Virus record (IMG/VR): IMGVR_UViG_3300046170_000180
Location: 1 to 32,333 of that record
DNA: 32,333 nt
Direction: 5' to 3' (one strand)
Source of the DNA: a virus
Under the pieces are notes generated by a model, which had not been told where the DNA came from, did not search any database, and saw only the letters and a list, made by a program, of their open reading frames with translations. Position numbers and translations under genes: made by a program. Positions within the stretch are counted from its first letter, which is position 1. Every line of letters begins with the position of its first letter. Below are positions 12,311-23,873 of this stretch, in pieces.

Positions 12311-14173
12311 ATGGCACGACGACCTATAACAGGAATGTTTACAAACGTCCAAGAAATGTCTCCTGATGAGTTTGCTAGTGGAGTAACTGCACCTGCTTTT
12401 ATTACTGAATCTTCCGGAGGCGATGCTTTTAAAGAGAATGTAATTGATATACCTAGATATGAAGATATAGATGAAGACGACGACACTCCGGCAGAACAAA
12501 CTCTTGACTCTATTCTTGACGAGTTAAAAGCAGAAGGCGCCACTGACGCTGATGTCGGCAATGCTGTAGATCTTTATGAAACAATTAAGGGCGCAATTCC
12601 TACTGACTTAGAAGGAGTAAAGGATCTTCTTGAGTCAATTATTAAAAGCTCTGCTGGAATTGCAGAAGAATGCAAAACATGGACTGGTCGAGTTGGTGAA
12701 GGAGAAGGAGGCTCTGGCTCTGTTCCCGGAAGTGGAAATAGAACTTACCAAGGCTGGAAAGACTGTTTTAATCTTGGGATGCTAAAAAACATTCCGGGAT
12801 TAGACCTACCGATACCACCAGGAATGTCGAGCATTACTTGGAAGGATCTTGAAGACAAGATTGTAGAAGCAGGGCAAAGCGTTGAGGATTTTATTAACGA
12901 TCCTGCGGGTTGGTTTGAAGATAAAGTAGAAGATGGCATACAAGCCGTAAGAGATGCTTGGGGCGATTTAACCTCTGGTGCGATCTTTAGTACAAACGAT
13001 CTTGAAAACGTACTTACAGATATTCTTGGCGGCTGGATATCTGGCGCTGTACTTAACGAGGTTAAGGATGCAGTAGGAGCTGAAAACCCCTTTTTGCTTG
13101 CAGGGGACTGTGAAGATCCAGCATTTAGAGAGGCTAATAAAGAGTTCTGCAATGAAGCCTTGCCTATTCCAGTAAAGGAAGAAGAAGGGCAGTGTGAAAA
13201 CGGAGCTACAAACTTCCCAGAATGCACAGAGTGTCCAGAAGGCTTCCAATATTTTGAAGGCACAAAAACTTGTGAGCCAGAAAAACAAGCACCAATTTGG
13301 CAAGACGATGGGCCAACAGCAGAAGATTGTGCTGCACAAAACAGAACTCATATACCCGGAAATGTAGAAACTGAAACAGACAGCAAGTGCGGCGGCTGTT
13401 TATCTGGCTATGAGCCTAACACTGAAGGTGAGTGCGAAGAAGAAAGCCTAGAAGGGCCATGCCCAACAGAAGGTCAAGTTCGCAATGCATTAGGTGAGTG
13501 CGAAGATCCAGTTGGTTTTGAAGACGGCGCGCCCTGCAAGACTCCTAGTGGCGAAGATGGCACATACGACGATAAAGGTAATTGCGTTGCAGATCCAGAG
13601 CCTCAGCCCGAACCGGAGCCTGAACCTGAACCTGAACCGGAGCCCGAGCCCGAGCCCGAGCCAGAACCAGAGCCTGAGCCAGAGCCTGAGCCTGAGCCAG
13701 GAATTGATTACCCTGAGCCAGAAGAGGAATGTCCTGAAGGCCAATTCCGAAATCAATTTGGCGTATGTACGACCCTTGAGTCTGAAGATCCTGAAGCTGA
13801 AAAGTGTGCTAATGGGGCTACTGACTGGCCTTTATGCTCAGAGTGTCCTGACGGCTCTATTCCAAGTGAAGAGTTTGGTTGCGAAGGGCCAGAAGAAGAG
13901 TGTCCTGAAGGGCTAACTAGAGACCCAGAAACGGGACAGTGCGTTCCTGTCGAAGGTGGTGAAGAGTCGCCAGAAACAGGCGGCGGCGGTGGTGGCGGCG
14001 GTGGTGGCGGCGGTGGCGGCGGTGGTGGCGGCATGATGTCTCCATTTATGGCAGGCATTAACTATCAACTACCTGAAATACAGCCTTTGGTTTTACCGCA
14101 AGCACAACCACAACGAGCAAACGATATGATGGGCGGCTTGCTTACTAAACTAATAGTAGATCGGAGCAGATAA
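12311..14173 (+). CDS. Large Cys-rich, Pro-Glu-repeat, poly-Gly protein of unknown function
   Basis: 620 aa. The N-terminal 290 residues are helical and acidic with few Cys. From about 290 to 555 it is Cys-rich in small repeated modules: two copies of C-x-NGAT-x-x-P-x-C-x-ECP-x-G (starting near 295 and 496) and three of CP-x-EG/GQ...R-N/D...G-x-C type. A Pro-Glu repeat (about 428-465) and a run of about 19 Gly (about 557-575) interrupt them. The C-terminus ([20 protein letters not shown]) ends the protein. No family was recognised. The position directly before the tail adaptor suggests a virion or host-contact protein. The disulfide-like modules are unusual for a cytoplasmic phage protein. 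Confidence 0.75.
13594..13700 (+). repeat. Pro-Glu dipeptide coding repeat
   Basis: A 6-base periodic stretch (CCNGAR pattern) encodes about 17 Pro-Glu pairs. Codons alternate between synonyms, so the peptide is being kept. A rigid, extended spacer between Cys modules is the likely role. Confidence 0.7.
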
Positions 14174-17759: not shown

Positions 17760-18998
17760 ATGGCACGTTTTGGTAGAGATTTAGTTAGATCCTTAACGCA
17801 ACCAGCTTTTGCAGAGGATGTTAGCCGAGTAGGAATGTTGGCTGGGTCAATGCCTGCTAGAAAGGAAAGGGCCGAAAAAACTGCAAGACTTGAAAAAGGC
17901 TTGTTTGGTTTGGAGCAGATGGCCGCATCTGGAGATCTTACTCCTGAGATGTATCAGCAGGCTATGGGTTCATACGCCAACATGATTACGGATGATGAGA
18001 GCGCGCAAAAGATTCGTGAAACCATGAATCGCGTTCAGGCTGATGTCCAGGCTACAGCGCAGTTTGAAGGCGGGACGGCTATAAACGCTGTTAGGGATCG
18101 TATGTATGAAGTCGTAAACGACCCCAACCTTCCTGATCCCGAAAAAAATAAACGCTTAGGAGAGCTTCAAATAGAAGCAAACACGATTGCCAAAGAAAAC
18201 AATCTTGATCCTATGGTTGTAGGTAATCTTGGAAGAACTGTTCGCCAAGATATGTTTGAAAAAAACCAGCAAAAAGAGCAGGCAAAGCGAGTTGCTAAAC
18301 AGTTTGAAATTACTGTAGAGCAAGCTGAAATGGCTGTTGCCAGATTTAGCCAATGGGAAAAAGAAGTAGATTTTCAAAATTTAGCAAACGAAGTAACAGC
18401 GCAGATGAATCAGGATTTGCTTTTAAAGTCCACGATTAGAGGCGGCACTGTAAGTAGAGAGGAGTTTCTGCAGGCAAACCCAGATAAAAGCTATTTGTAC
18501 GATGAAATTGAAACAGAAAACCTAGAAATGCAAAACAGGTTGACTGACGCTAAAAACAAAAGAGATGCAGGCGGGTTCAATTATACAGATGAAGAGCTTA
18601 AATCTATTGGGTATAAGCCAGAAGAAATAAAGATGCTCAGAGAAGCCGCAAAAACGAATTCAAATGTTGCTCATCAAGCAATTATTCAAAGAATAAATAG
18701 AGTTCCTGAGACACGAAAGCTAAACGCGGCAATGCTTGGAAGAATTAGCGAAGCACTTTTAGTTGATGTCATGAAAGAAAAAGACTATGACTATGAAGAT
18801 GATGAGGATGTTAGAGAGGCTAAAGCTATTGCCTCAAAAAGAGCCATTCAGATTGAAGAGCTTATGTCTGGCGGATTAACTTTTAATGGTGCCGTAGAAG
18901 CGTTTTTTGCAAAAAATTCAGCAGAAGAAGATGAAGGCCCAGATGTTGAGAGCGAACTAGCTAGACTTCTTAAAGAGCTTCAAAACGAGGCTGACTAA
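17760..18998 (+). CDS. Internal virion protein candidate (gp15 position)
   Basis: 412 aa, strongly helical and charged. It begins MARFGRDLVRSLTQPAFAED and has repeated acidic helices (ENLEMQNRLTDAKNKRDAGG, RISEALLVDVMKEKDYDYED). No enzyme motif is visible. AAGGAG precedes the start ideally. Size and order after the tail-tube genes suggest an ejected core protein. Confidence 0.6.
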   Translation: MARFGRDLVRSLTQPAFAEDVSRVGMLAGSMPARKERAEKTARLEKGLFGLEQMAASGDLTPEMYQQAMGSYANMITDDESAQKIRETMNRVQADVQATAQFEGGTAINAVRDRMYEVVNDPNLPDPEKNKRLGELQIEANTIAKENNLDPMVVGNLGRTVRQDMFEKNQQKEQAKRVAKQFEITVEQAEMAVARFSQWEKEVDFQNLANEVTAQMNQDLLLKSTIRGGTVSREEFLQANPDKSYLYDEIETENLEMQNRLTDAKNKRDAGGFNYTDEELKSIGYKPEEIKMLREAAKTNSNVAHQAIIQRINRVPETRKLNAAMLGRISEALLVDVMKEKDYDYEDDEDVREAKAIASKRAIQIEELMSGGLTFNGAVEAFFAKNSAEEDEGPDVESELARLLKELQNEAD

Positions 18999-21900
18999 TG
19001 AGCTTTAGACTTCAAACAATGGCATACAAAGTTCGCAAACTTGCGGAAGCGCAGGGTCGTGACGACATTCTTGAAGCTCTAGACAGCATTCCGATTCCTG
19101 AGGATGGTGTTTCCACAAGAGAAGGCCGACTCTTTCAGAGGGAAAAAGAAGATCAGCTTCTATACAGGGATCGCCTAGAGCAAAGAAAGCAGCTCGAAGA
19201 AGTTGAGCGAGTTGCCAAGGAAAAGGGCCGTCAAGATGTACTTGATGCCCTTGTTCCTATTAAGGCTCAGATAGACTCTGACATCTTTGATGCGGAAGAT
19301 ATTAGCGAAGAGGCTATTGGAACAGGACTTGCTATTACTGAGGGTCTTACCCTTGGTATTGTAGGTGATGAGGCCGCCGCTTCTATCTACTCAAAGGTTA
19401 CTGGCGAAGATTACGAAACATCCCTTTCTGAAATGAGAAGGATGGAAAGAGAGTTTGCCAGAGATCACCGAGCTATCGACATGGGCATTCGCATTGGCGC
19501 CGGCCTTATCCCTTCTGTTCGGCTTGCAAGGATGGCGGGCGTTGGTACTACAGCCGCTTCAGGTGCAGCAAGGCAATCTGGGATAACCTCTGCTGAGATT
19601 GCAACGTATCGTTTTGCTGAGGGCGAGGGCGGCGTGCAAGAGCGCCTGGAGGGAGTTGCTGATCTTGCAACAGATCCTTATGCCCTTGGTGCCGTGGCCC
19701 TTACCGGAACCCTTGGCGGTGTTGCTGGAAGGACGGTAGGAAAAGATCTTGAGCTTGAGGCCGGGCTGCGTGCCGCCATTGAAGCTGAAGAGAAAAAACT
19801 TCAAGCCCTTCGAGAGGGTAAGGGCGTTTTATCTGGCAGTAGTGTTGTGGGTAATGCGCAGCTACGTGCCGATGAAATGGTTTTAGACTTTTACAATCAA
19901 ATGGGGCGTATGCCGCAAGGTACTGAAATATCTAATCTCTATAGAGCCCTGTCTGAAGATATGCAGATGCCAATATCTCGCATCATGCAGTCAGAGATGA
20001 AAGCCGGGCAGATGAGAAGTGACCTTAACTATGCAAGGCAAAGCATTGATGATGTCCGAGGAAGGCTTAACCGAGATGTTAAATTCAAGTCTACAGAAGA
20101 GGCACTAGAAAGCAGAAGCAAATACTTCGGCTTTAGAGACTTCTGGGAAGACAAACTTGAGTCCATTGTTAACGTAGCTAAGAATCGTGTTAGTGCTGAG
20201 TTTGGCGGCTCTATGCAGAAGATGGCTACCCGCATGGCTCAGAACCAACAGAGCTTAGACGAGGCCTTTGCAACGCCGCAGGTTCAGGCATTTGGCAAGG
20301 TCATGCAGGGCGATAGGTCTGGTCGAATAAAGATGGAGCTACTTAACTTTTCCAACACAAGCGGAAGGGTTAGTGCTGACGACCGGATGGAGGCGTTTGA
20401 AAACTTTAAGTCCCTGTTAACTAAAGAGCAGTTTGAAGGCTTCCAGACATTACAAAAGCTACGGCTTGCGCAGGCAAAAGACTACAGAAGATTCGTATAC
20501 AGAGAGCTAGGCGATGACCCTCTGTACTTCCCCTCTCAGATGCTGGCTCAAACCAATAGGGCGTCTGTCTTTGTTAGACGTGGAATGCCTAGAAGGGCGG
20601 CAGACGAGAACAGCAAGGCGATAAGCAGAGAGAAACTCGAGTCGCCTTCGGAGGCTTTGTCATACGAAAGCCCCTTGGTTGTTATGCGTGACAAGCTGGT
20701 TTCTGATGATGCAGTTATTCAGATGCATAAAGCATTTAAACTTCAGAACAACTCTAATCGGCTCATTAGTGAGTCAGCAGAGAGGGTTGACGTTCCTGTT
20801 ATTGACAAGAAGAAAGCTGCCTCGGTGGTCAAAAAGCGCAAGAAGACCGTTCAGACTGAAATCGAGAATGGCGAGGCTGCGTTTAGCCAGTTAAGAACAA
20901 ACCTTAAAGGGGCCGGCGCAAGCGATGGCGCTATGTATGCCGCAGACGATTTGATGCGTAGCTTTGTTGTGAGAGGAATACAGGCACCCAACAACTGGCT
21001 GGCTAATATGCGTAAGGCCGCATACATGGGAACCATCGGCAATCCCTACTCAGCCATACTAAACTTTGGCGATAGCGCCAACACGGTTGTTAACTTTGGG
21101 GCTGATAACACGGCTCTGGCAATCAGAGAGTACTTCAAGAAAGGTGGATATACCTTCGGCGTAAAAGACGTTGGCTTGCTGCAGCAGTCTACAGGTGAAT
21201 TTATAAGGGAAGGCTCAAAGGGATGGCAAAAAAGATTCGACAAACTTAGTGAGGTTACCTTTCAGTCCTCTGGTTTCCGTGGCGCAGACCGAGCCGGCAA
21301 GTCATTAACGCTAACCACCGCAGTAAAGCGAGGACAGCAGAAGGTTCTTGATGGTTCGCTTGATGCTGAATATTCCTGGCTATTTAATCGAAACGAAATG
21401 GCAAGACTCAAGTCCGATCTAATTAACAGTCGCAGGACGCAGCGCGTTAAGGAGTTTGCCGCCGCAGAGCTAGGCAAGCTGCAGCCATCTGACATGGCAC
21501 AAATGCCTAAGTGGTACATCGACCACCCGAATGGTCGGTTGCTTTATATGCTACGCACCTTTGGCATCAAGCAGCTACAGCAGATTGATCGCTTGGTTGT
21601 TGAGCAAGCAAAACAAGGAAACAGGAAAGAGGCAATCAAGAATGCACTCGCCTATGTGACTATCGTTGGTGGCGGTAACGCCCTGCTTAACGAGCTAAGA
21701 CAGCCCTTGAAGGGCAAAGAGATCGGGGAAGAGGGAAGATACCTTGATGTTGCCGGAGGCCGCGCACTCGAATACTTTGTTGATTTCCACCTAGGGGTTG
21801 CATCACTGAACAGTCAGAGCGCTTACACTCTTGAAAAACTTGCCGAAGGAGATCCTAAGTCATTTATCAGGGGCTTCATGCCTGTTCCTGTAGATATGGT

Positions 21901-22036
21901 TGAGGATGTTTCGAGTGACTTCTTCCCGTTGATTGCCGGCGAAAAGGATATAGATGAGGCCATACTTGAAGGTAAGGGCATTACTTGGGCGCCATGGATG
22001 CGCGTAGTGCAGCCCGTCCTAGAAGAGAACCTCTAG
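18998..22036 (+). CDS. Large internal virion / DNA-ejection protein candidate (gp16 position)
   Basis: 1012 aa, the largest gene here and the last of the late block. It starts MSFRLQTMAYKVRKLAEAQG. A hydrophobic Ala/Gly region at about 150-200 (GAGLIPSVRLARMAGVGTTA) could contact membrane. Much of the rest is helical (RDFWEDKLESIVNVAKNRVS, FRGADRAGKSLTLTTAVKRG). No lysozyme or transglycosylase motif was recognised, unlike T7 gp16. Its stop overlaps that of the convergent NinG-like gene, with no room for a terminator. Confidence 0.65.
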   Translation: MSFRLQTMAYKVRKLAEAQGRDDILEALDSIPIPEDGVSTREGRLFQREKEDQLLYRDRLEQRKQLEEVERVAKEKGRQDVLDALVPIKAQIDSDIFDAEDISEEAIGTGLAITEGLTLGIVGDEAAASIYSKVTGEDYETSLSEMRRMEREFARDHRAIDMGIRIGAGLIPSVRLARMAGVGTTAASGAARQSGITSAEIATYRFAEGEGGVQERLEGVADLATDPYALGAVALTGTLGGVAGRTVGKDLELEAGLRAAIEAEEKKLQALREGKGVLSGSSVVGNAQLRADEMVLDFYNQMGRMPQGTEISNLYRALSEDMQMPISRIMQSEMKAGQMRSDLNYARQSIDDVRGRLNRDVKFKSTEEALESRSKYFGFRDFWEDKLESIVNVAKNRVSAEFGGSMQKMATRMAQNQQSLDEAFATPQVQAFGKVMQGDRSGRIKMELLNFSNTSGRVSADDRMEAFENFKSLLTKEQFEGFQTLQKLRLAQAKDYRRFVYRELGDDPLYFPSQMLAQTNRASVFVRRGMPRRAADENSKAISREKLESPSEALSYESPLVVMRDKLVSDDAVIQMHKAFKLQNNSNRLISESAERVDVPVIDKKKAASVVKKRKKTVQTEIENGEAAFSQLRTNLKGAGASDGAMYAADDLMRSFVVRGIQAPNNWLANMRKAAYMGTIGNPYSAILNFGDSANTVVNFGADNTALAIREYFKKGGYTFGVKDVGLLQQSTGEFIREGSKGWQKRFDKLSEVTFQSSGFRGADRAGKSLTLTTAVKRGQQKVLDGSLDAEYSWLFNRNEMARLKSDLINSRRTQRVKEFAAAELGKLQPSDMAQMPKWYIDHPNGRLLYMLRTFGIKQLQQIDRLVVEQAKQGNRKEAIKNALAYVTIVGGGNALLNELRQPLKGKEIGEEGRYLDVAGGRALEYFVDFHLGVASLNSQSAYTLEKLAEGDPKSFIRGFMPVPVDMVEDVSSDFFPLIAGEKDIDEAILEGKGITWAPWMRVVQPVLEENL

Positions 22037-22458
22037 TCCCAACTAACAAACTCTAACCATCCCGCAATACCTGCCGCCCTGTCATTCTCCATACGGGCGG
22101 CTTCTTCTTTGTAATGCTTGGCTATTTCTTTCTGCTCTTTATTCATGCGCCTGCCTAGATCAATGTCTTCGGCCTTCTCTCTAATCAACTCAAGGCATCC
22201 TTCGCCGTAGGTATCTATGTAGTGGCGAACAAAGTAATCAGGATTGCTGCCGTACTTCTGATGGCACCCGTAACAGTGTGCGAAGGCGTTTAGTGCGTCG
22301 TACCGAATCCCTTTTTTAGATCTACTAAAGTAGTGCGAGCAGTGTAGCCCTGTACTGTTTGACTCGTACTGTGCGCCACAACCCTGGCACTTAAAGTCGT
22401 TCCGTATTCTGACGCACCTGCTAAACCAATGATCTGCTGCTGTTCTTTTTAGTTTCAT
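22033..22458 (-). CDS. NinG/Rap-like recombination protein
   Basis: 141 aa. In lambda, NinG (Rap) is a Holliday-junction and branch endonuclease. The hallmark cysteine/histidine pattern is present: C24-x2-C27 (KCQGCG), HCSH at 39-42 and HCYGCH at 61-66, with WFSRCVRIRN before it and DALNAFAHCYGC within it, as in NinG proteins. The gene overlaps the methyltransferase (ATGA). Its stop meets the end of the rightward block. Confidence 0.82.
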   Translation of the reverse strand: MKLKRTAADHWFSRCVRIRNDFKCQGCGAQYESNSTGLHCSHYFSRSKKGIRYDALNAFAHCYGCHQKYGSNPDYFVRHYIDTYGEGCLELIREKAEDIDLGRRMNKEQKEIAKHYKEEAARMENDRAAGIAGWLEFVSWD

Positions 22459-23318
22459 TTCAATGCTCTTCCTATAAGCTCTGGTATTGGTGGAACTACT
22501 GCGTTACCTAGGCATTTAAGTCTGTGTGACCTAGAGGGAACCCCATTAGCCACTCGACCCACGTCGGGTTCAACGTCCCAGACTGACGCTCTTCCTTCGC
22601 AGCGGTTGACAACCCAACTTGCTTGCCGATTCTGAGGCGACGCTTTACTGACTCGTCCTCCATGCAGTCCCGATCCCGATTGTCCGACGCATTCGGTGTC
22701 GGCCAGTACGCTTTCGTATGGCGCACCTCGTCCACCAGAGTTATCGTCGATTGCCCCGTCTTGCGGCAGAGATCGTAAAGGGCTTTGCTTTTCGGCCCCT
22801 GGCTCCCATTCGCCGCCGCTGGGGTACGCCACAATCCAGACCCGATCTCTGTGGTGGTGCGCGCCAAGTTCGGAAGCTGGTATACAGTGCCACTCCGCAT
22901 CATACCCGAGCGCGGAAATGTCCCAGAGAACTCGCTTAAACCAAGCTCCCCGTTCTCCATTAAGCAGGTTTGTGACGTTTTCAAAGATGGCGTATCTGGG
23001 CTGAAGCTCCCTAATAAGACGGGCGCACTCTGACCATAGTCCACTGCGCTCGCCTTCAATACCCGCTTGCTTTCCTGCAACGGAGATGTCTTGGCAAGGG
23101 AATCCGCCTGTGATGACATCGACTCTAATTCCGTCTGAAGCCAATCGCTCTGCTGTGATTGTTCTAACGTCGTCATAAATAGGAACCCCTGGCCAATTCT
23201 TTTTTAACACCTTTTTAGCGTATAGGTCTATCTCACAAAACGCGACAGTTTCAAACCCTGCGCGCTCCAAACCTATAGTAAACCCGCCTATGCCGGCAAA
23301 TAAATCAAGAACCTTCAT
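22455..23318 (-). CDS. DNA (cytosine-5) methyltransferase
   Basis: 287 aa and complete for a short phage enzyme. Motif I LDLFAGIGGF at 4-13, catalytic Cys75 in GGFPCQDIS (71-79), ENVTN at 113-117, RDRVWIVAYP at 157-166, a short target-recognition part (about 167-250), and GNAVVPPIPE near 271-280. It transfers a methyl group from SAM to cytosine C5. It could protect phage DNA from host restriction or modify control sites; no partner endonuclease is seen. A second long open frame lies inside it (22508-23176). Confidence 0.92.
   Translation of the reverse strand: MKVLDLFAGIGGFTIGLERAGFETVAFCEIDLYAKKVLKKNWPGVPIYDDVRTITAERLASDGIRVDVITGGFPCQDISVAGKQAGIEGERSGLWSECARLIRELQPRYAIFENVTNLLNGERGAWFKRVLWDISALGYDAEWHCIPASELGAHHHRDRVWIVAYPSGGEWEPGAEKQSPLRSLPQDGAIDDNSGGRGAPYESVLADTECVGQSGSGLHGGRVSKASPQNRQASWVVNRCEGRASVWDVEPDVGRVANGVPSRSHRLKCLGNAVVPPIPELIGRALK
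22508..23176 (-). CDS. Open frame nested in the methyltransferase gene, possible dual-coding gene
   Basis: 222 codons on the same strand as the methyltransferase but in another frame; the longest such nested frame in the window. The peptide has family-like motifs: SFSPDTPSLKTSQTCL, FSGTFPRSGMMRSGTVYQLP, GLWRTPAAANG, WPTPNASDN and LNPTWVEWLMGFPLG near the end. From memory, many phage and metagenome proteins share these motifs and are usually called hypothetical or methyltransferase-related. Here each motif is the other frame of a methyltransferase motif (LNPTWVEWLMGFP overlies VEPDVGRVANGVP). It could be a real overlapping gene or a conserved shadow. No strong ribosome binding site was identified. 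Confidence 0.4.
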   Translation of the reverse strand: MTTLEQSQQSDWLQTELESMSSQADSLAKTSPLQESKRVLKASAVDYGQSAPVLLGSFSPDTPSLKTSQTCLMENGELGLSEFSGTFPRSGMMRSGTVYQLPNLARTTTEIGSGLWRTPAAANGSQGPKSKALYDLCRKTGQSTITLVDEVRHTKAYWPTPNASDNRDRDCMEDESVKRRLRIGKQVGLSTAAKEERQSGTLNPTWVEWLMGFPLGHTDLNA

Positions 23319-23737
23319 TTCAATTGATCCTTGAGTTGTTGAGGGAATGGCACATACACCTGCTTATGCTCTGAGAGCCACCTGATTAGCACCTCAGCGG
23401 CCTCTGATAGTTCCTGTGTAGTTAGCCTGCCTGTGGAGCCTTTGTTGTACATGGACTTAATGATGGGCTTGTAGAGCGTCTCCTTTACTAGCACCTCGGT
23501 AAAGGGAATCTCGAGGGCATCACTAAAGGGGTGACGTACCCAGTATCCTGCATCATTTAGTTCGCTTGCTATCTGCCTAAACCATAGGTGCATAGCGTTG
23601 TTCTGTCTATCACTGCGCGTTGTGTCCTTGATTGCGTACAGTATTTTCTTGCCGTCATCGAACTGCGTAGTAACGAAAGCAATAAAAAAGTCCATCTTGT
23701 CTTTAGTATCGACAAGCCATCGGTGTGACGTATCCAT
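23315..23737 (-). CDS. NinB-like recombination mediator
   Basis: 140 aa. Residues about 38-60 (DTTRSDRQNNAMHLWFRQIA) and the helical rest with TTQELSEAAEVLIRWLSEH match NinB-type proteins, which bind single-stranded DNA and help recombination. From memory, NinB with NinG is the lambda nin-region pair. The start at 23737 lies directly downstream of the G-run repeats, whose last unit GGGGAAAC could serve as ribosome binding site. An ATG at 23695 is a possible alternative start. It overlaps the methyltransferase by four bases. Confidence 0.65.
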   Translation of the reverse strand: MDTSHRWLVDTKDKMDFFIAFVTTQFDDGKKILYAIKDTTRSDRQNNAMHLWFRQIASELNDAGYWVRHPFSDALEIPFTEVLVKETLYKPIIKSMYNKGSTGRLTTQELSEAAEVLIRWLSEHKQVYVPFPQQLKDQLK

Positions 23738-23740
23738 TTA

Positions 23741-23873
23741 GTTTCCCCAGTTTCCCCAGTTTCCCCAGCTTCCCCCGTATACCCCAGTTTTACCCCCGGC
23801 CTTGAGCCTCAACCCGCCCCCTACAGAGGGGGATTACGGGTATTCTGGGTATTCTGGGTATTCTGGGGATTAC
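23741..23873. repeat. Opposed 9-bp G/C-run repeats around a hairpin, copy 2
   Basis: GTTTCCCCA occurs three times in tandem (23741-23749, 23750-23758, 23759-23767), followed by degenerate units to about 23785. Then comes a perfect 6-bp hairpin (CCCCCT 23817-23822, AGGGGG 23827-23832, 4-base loop). GGGTATTCT follows three times (23838-23846, 23847-23855, 23856-23864) and GGGGATTAC (23865-23873). Each strand thus carries at least four G runs of 3-5 with short loops, so each could form a quadruplex. The right part overlaps the end of the ATPase gene. The hairpin start and units resemble 229-280. Confidence 0.75.

Follow-up and report, generated by a model that had tools for sequence, protein, structure and literature searches.

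Locus and gene layout

The window analysed here is the whole stretch of viral DNA, 32,333 nucleotides long, and positions refer to it unless another locus is named. On its minus strand, positions 22455..23318 hold a gene for a protein of 287 aa, identified by a PF00145 match, an AF2 model and Foldseek as the catalytic subunit of a C5 cytosine methyltransferase. Entirely within this open reading frame, on the same strand (22508..23176), lies a second frame that begins with ATG and runs for 222 codons with no internal stop. An earlier note had pointed out this frame, and both its coordinates and its ATG are confirmed. The odds given there for a frame of this length, roughly 2 in 100,000, agree with (61/64)^222 = 2.3e-5, and the quoted motifs of its peptide are present, overlying methyltransferase motifs as described.

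The methyltransferase is called alpha and its frame A; the nested product is called beta and its frame B, which is +1 relative to A. In this register, position 3 of an A codon is position 2 of a B codon, and position 1 of an A codon is position 3 of a B codon. Beta (222 aa) is a putative specificity subunit, as suggested by its open frame, its match to phrog_1008 and its coding signature.

A NinB-like gene lies upstream (23315-23737, minus strand) and a NinG-like gene downstream. Because both neighbours overlap alpha by 4 nt, alpha and beta are placed in a phage recombination operon. A 9-bp tandem repeat, AGTTTCCCC, is present in 5.6 copies at 23740-23790, directly upstream of and overlapping the likely NinB-like ribosome-binding region. 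Another 9-bp array, GGGTATTCT, has 3.8 copies at 23838-23871. Elsewhere in the window, three long phage ORFs at 12311-14173, 17760-18998 and 18998-22036 (620, 412 and 1012 aa) have no PHROG match at E 0.001.

The alpha subunit

Alpha matches PF00145 with E=1.4e-53, over profile positions 1-169 of 324 only. It contains the catalytic domain with the PCQ motif, here in the form GGFPCQD, and so belongs to the C5 cytosine methyltransferase superfamily. The AF2 model is confident for residues 1-171, and Foldseek aligns it to M.HhaI over 166 columns with an rmsd of 1.5. For residues 172-271 the pLDDT is below 50.

Motifs I-VIII occupy residues 1-167 (22818..23318, minus strand), as located by PF00145, alignment and AF2. 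Residues 172-245 (22584..22805, minus strand) form a linker that lies over the beta modules; it is open, unconserved and predicted to be disordered, and its substitutions follow frame B. Motif X, LGNAVVPPIPELIG (22470..22511, minus strand), lies mostly past the end of beta. It is invariant in alignment A2, and the alpha-type codon pattern returns there. The LxPRE..RLMGFP element known as motif IX is not recognisable in alpha. Window alpha is a large subunit with motifs I-VIII and X and without a recognisable IX.

Across 146 loci, the linker region contains no stop in the alpha frame, compared with 312 predicted when beta's synonymous codons are permuted. Since stops are absent despite the unconserved sequence, alpha must be read without a break between motifs VIII and X, with this stretch as a linker.

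Evidence that the nested frame is coding

The earlier note had offered two explanations for the nested frame: either the phage makes two proteins from one stretch of DNA, or a set of database proteins is merely the shadow of the enzyme. In the latter case frame B would be non-coding, its motifs would be methyltransferase motifs read at +1, and the database proteins would be spurious ORFs. The N-terminal motifs of frame B do overlie conserved alpha motifs, and frame B is never found apart from alpha, both of which are in keeping with a shadow.

The openness that alpha itself imposes on frame B can be estimated with a null model in which the alpha protein and its codon usage are kept and synonymous codons are permuted. 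For the window, this model predicts about 6 stops in frame B. The real sequence has 0, whereas all of the 500 permuted versions are closed by at least one. A set of 80 viral loci was gathered by alpha similarity alone, unselected for frame B; 76 of these A-seeded loci are distinct and have an intact alpha. Frame B is open in 71 of the 76, compared with 2.7 expected. Together they contain 17 stops in frame B, where 347 would be expected; their third frame contains 749. A count over 206 loci (0 stops seen, 851 expected) was circular, as these loci had been picked with frame B open, and was replaced by the A-seeded count. In B-seeded loci, stops turn up freely ahead of the beta start and again right after the beta stop, with almost none between. 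Neither these loci nor the 76 A-seeded ones show free stops within frame B among relatives.

Substitution rates in alpha were compared in gene pairs at 75-99% alpha identity, which share ancestry and are phylogenetically non-independent. In these pairs the third-position difference is 0.10 in residues 95-166, inside beta; outside beta it is higher, 0.50 over the first 38 codons and 0.46 over the last 15. Within the overlap, synonymous change in alpha is about 5-fold lower, and on either side it returns to its higher level. The first-position difference of the same pairs is steady and shows no drop (0.10 vs 0.08-0.11). Because the third-position drop is confined to the overlap, whatever constrains the synonymous sites of alpha stops at the end of beta. 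Frame B shows both marks of dual coding: it is open, and synonymous sites are constrained, to an extent that the reference frame does not account for.

Within the module region of beta, alignment-based substitution counts are unreliable because modules are swapped, and frame-neutral nucleotide matches from blastn were used instead. In the stretch that separates alpha motif VIII from beta motif IX, matches at 60-75% identity differ at frame B positions 3, 1 and 2 by 0.53, 0.27 and 0.18, and those at 85-97% identity by 0.25, 0.05 and 0.03. The surroundings of beta motif IX again show the frame-B pattern, while the two alpha-only flanks show the ordinary frame-A pattern. This switch of frame is large and is repeated at three divergence levels, in pairs that are non-independent by ancestry.

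The variable middle of the gene is ordinary coding sequence in frame B, in which the methyltransferase frame is passive. These computations show that selection changes frame along the gene, and that frame B is protein-coding and under selection. Aligning homologous loci and comparing substitution rates in both frames, as had been proposed, identifies frame B as coding. Constraint is not explained by the methyltransferase frame, given its restriction to the overlap in alpha and the frame-B pattern in the middle.

Openness, synonymous constraint and codon pattern all support two proteins from one stretch. The shadow explanation is extremely unlikely: it is refuted by the openness of the A-seeded loci, far above what alpha imposes, and by the frame-neutral substitution pattern, with its frame-B signature where alpha is unconserved. 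The limitation of synonymous constraint to the overlap also stands against it.

Domains of beta

Beta matches phrog_1008, annotated as 'DNA methyltransferase', with E=3.9e-25. Since all 60 of 60 betas scanned match PHROG 1008, that family is this beta family. Searches of beta against Pfam and NCBIfam gave no matches. AF2 predicts beta alone poorly (pLDDT 61, pTM 0.23), and the model was not used for fold search.

The N-terminal domain, residues 1-115 (22832..23176, minus strand), is overprinted on alpha motifs II-VIII, and in the sampled loci it is found only in +1 overlap with alpha. In betas, the part between this domain and motif IX holds one to four modules, each about 35 residues long and starting with [W/L]PTP. 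The window beta has two, both on the minus strand. Module 1, WRTPAAANGS..., spans residues 116-157 (22706..22831) and is recognised by the module inventory and the frame-B codon signature. Module 2, WPTPNASDNRDR..., spans residues 158-200 (22577..22705), and a similar module occurs in loci whose beta N-domains are 21-45% identical.

In 77 pairs, modules are at least 80% identical in betas whose N-terminal domains are less than 45% identical. Near-identical modules in divergent betas indicate, on this computed comparison, that modules are exchanged between betas. They look, and in being exchanged also behave, like target-recognition domains, and as such would contact DNA.

Beta ends with a conserved sequence, LNPTWVEWLMGFP, that resembles C5-methyltransferase motif IX (LxPRE..RLMGFP). 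In the window this motif is LNPTWVEWLMGFPLGHTDL, residues 202-220 (22517..22573, minus strand). Run on the complete set of PDB chains with an E limit of 10, a beta profile finds only two sequences, both DRM C5 methyltransferases and both at motif IX, in matches that are individually weak (E about 1 for beta, 0.02-0.08 for the L135 variant described below). Euratis motifs IX-X as a PDB query gave one match, judged to be chance.

Probable translation start of beta

The beta ATG is made by a Tyr codon of alpha. At this site the codon is TAT in 65 of 95 loci (65:30), compared with 22 of 71 (22:49) in alpha Tyr codons that do not overlap (P=2e-6). Most loci with this beta ATG have a GGAG or GAGG-like sequence 9 nt upstream. 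The window has AGGGG at that distance (23186..23190, minus strand), a weaker Shine-Dalgarno-like site. The simplest reading of these sequences is that beta is initiated independently, at an internal site. In a gammaproteobacterial and Leptospira group (L247, L248, L250), frame B is open from nt 4-5 of alpha, and a possible beta ATG shares a few bases with the alpha start.

Programmed frameshifting could instead join alpha and frame B into one polypeptide, running from motifs I-VIII into recognition domain and motif IX. Such an order would resemble a normal C5 methyltransferase, and frameshifted phage genes exist. A fusion is disfavoured because frame B is open and constrained far upstream of the modules, or of any useful shift site, and because alpha is kept open to motif X, which a single shift would lose. 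With the start codon and the Shine-Dalgarno-like site of beta also conserved, it can be regarded as very improbable.

Natural variants

Evidence for the role of the conserved end of beta can also be found in loci where the motifs are divided differently. In L135 (2492-3544 and 2805-3335), motif IX has moved into the alpha frame, directly before motif X, and beta, left with modules only, ends just before motif IX. Placed against PF00145, this alpha covers positions 2-322 of 324, vs 1-169 for window alpha. The Streptomyces phages Euratis and RemusLoopin have an alpha that stops after motif VIII; their modules, IX and X are all in beta, in frame B. These variants make a stronger case for motif IX in beta than the PDB matches alone. 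By these computed comparisons, motif IX lies in beta, and alpha has no recognisable one.

Further arrangements occur. L143 (542-2082) has a three-piece methyltransferase, with alpha to motif VIII, beta with modules and IX, and a separate ORF of 80 residues with motif X. In L158 (133-1952) and L199, two alpha/beta units lie in tandem within a single locus, and several recognition modules are present in the second unit.

Beta could also be a real protein with another job, for instance in anti-restriction or regulation, that merely overlaps the methyltransferase. It has no Pfam family and no confidently predicted structure, both in keeping with this reading. This explanation is nonetheless very unlikely: beta has the motif IX that alpha lacks, the motif shuttles between the frames in natural variants, beta co-occurs invariantly with alpha, and M.EcoHK31I offers a precedent. 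Most likely, the nested product is not an unrelated protein but a second subunit of the very enzyme whose gene it overlaps.

Distribution and annotation

The alpha/beta pair is found in hundreds of phage contigs, and also in E. coli prophage-like loci, a Leptospira plasmid and mycobacteriophages. In three sets of 80 loci each, the +1 arrangement is present in 78 of the viral loci seeded with B, in 65 of the viral loci seeded with A and in 72 of the bacterial ones. Among 33 further sampled loci, alpha is detectable in 30, all with the +1 arrangement. It had been proposed to map frame-B matches for overlap with a methyltransferase, and doing so never found frame B away from alpha. In evenly drawn genomes of two bacterial classes, matches occur in 14 of 385 and 11 of 391 (about 3%), each count including the seed genome. 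A plasmid search gave 7 records only.

Beta is unannotated in most database records examined. It is annotated beside alpha in Paenibacillus phage Bloom, and only alpha is annotated in E. coli PT62, mycobacteriophage SG4 and Acinetobacter phage ABMM1.

A probable two-subunit enzyme and its significance

One stretch of phage DNA very probably encodes, in different frames, the catalytic and the target-recognising halves of one methylating enzyme. Like M.EcoHK31I, this enzyme is highly likely to be a heterodimeric C5 methyltransferase, with frame B encoding beta as its specificity subunit; its activity and dimerisation are predicted.

In such an enzyme, alpha would supply the catalytic and AdoMet-binding motifs I-VIII, plus motif X, joined by a disordered stretch. 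Beta would initiate inside the alpha gene, at an ATG about 142 nt from the alpha start. Its N-terminal domain would probably be the part that docks to alpha, followed by tandem exchangeable target-recognition modules and motif IX. The chemistry of alpha and the specificity of beta would then assemble, presumably as a heterodimer, into one functional enzyme that may mark phage DNA, probably against host restriction. Overprinting would have gone both ways, with the beta N-domain over the catalytic motifs of alpha and the alpha linker over the recognition modules of beta. Phages could change or multiply specificity by recombination inside the dual-coding region.

On balance, we favour the view that this is a widespread family whose two proteins are each ancient in one half and overprinted on the partner in the other, that swappable modules let phages change or multiply specificity, and that most 'orphan' relatives lack an annotated specificity subunit. 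The locus is an unusually clear case of long dual coding on the same strand, in phages and bacteria, in which selection switches frame along one gene. Many 'DNA cytosine methyltransferase' records, the three named above included, show alpha only; no activity is therefore to be expected when the annotated protein is cloned by itself or its codons are recoded. The origin of the overprinted domain and the exchange of modules within overlapping genes become directly testable.

Comparison with known systems

In M.EcoHK31I, beta is nested in alpha in another frame, and at the window locus, too, the small-subunit gene is nested in the large-subunit gene in another frame. M.EcoHK31I (YGGCCR) is a natural C5 methyltransferase of two polypeptides, with motifs I-VIII and X in the large subunit and IX in the small one (PMC3404938; PMC3439449), a layout shared by the window locus. 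The small subunit of the window carries motif IX, as indicated by the PDB profile match, with its weak E-values, and by the L135 and Euratis variants. The predicted target-recognition domain (TRD) of M.EcoHK31I is placed in the large subunit (PMC3404938). In the window, by contrast, codon evidence places the modules in beta, in a family with tandem arrays of 1-4; the large subunit has no such domain, the region being under frame-B selection and alpha disordered there. The placement in M.EcoHK31I is a prediction, so that having a recognition domain in the large subunit may not truly define that type. The best explanation is that the window locus works like M.EcoHK31I, to which it is likened by the described motif layout.

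M.AquI (CYCGRG) is another split C5 methyltransferase, whose two polypeptides together give motifs I-X (PMC3404938). Two polypeptides supply I-X here as well, and Euratis and RemusLoopin are split similarly (I-VIII and TRD-IX-X). Unlike M.AquI, which has motif X in its small subunit, the window locus has X in alpha, and its beta is fully nested. PHROG 1008 is the same family as beta, but its annotation gives neither the nested arrangement nor a subunit role.

The multispecific C5 methyltransferases of the Bacillus phages SPbeta, phi3T and rho11 carry target-recognition domains that are about 40 residues long, arranged in arrays and exchangeable. Those enzymes are single-chain, whereas here the modules are in a nested second subunit. 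In the part of the literature covered, no description of the nested family in phages was found. Papers on phages that describe alternate-frame genes within methylases deal with inserted HNH endonucleases, which is a separate phenomenon. The two-polypeptide type of C5 methyltransferase is already known; the variation here is that the putative recognition modules are in the small subunit.
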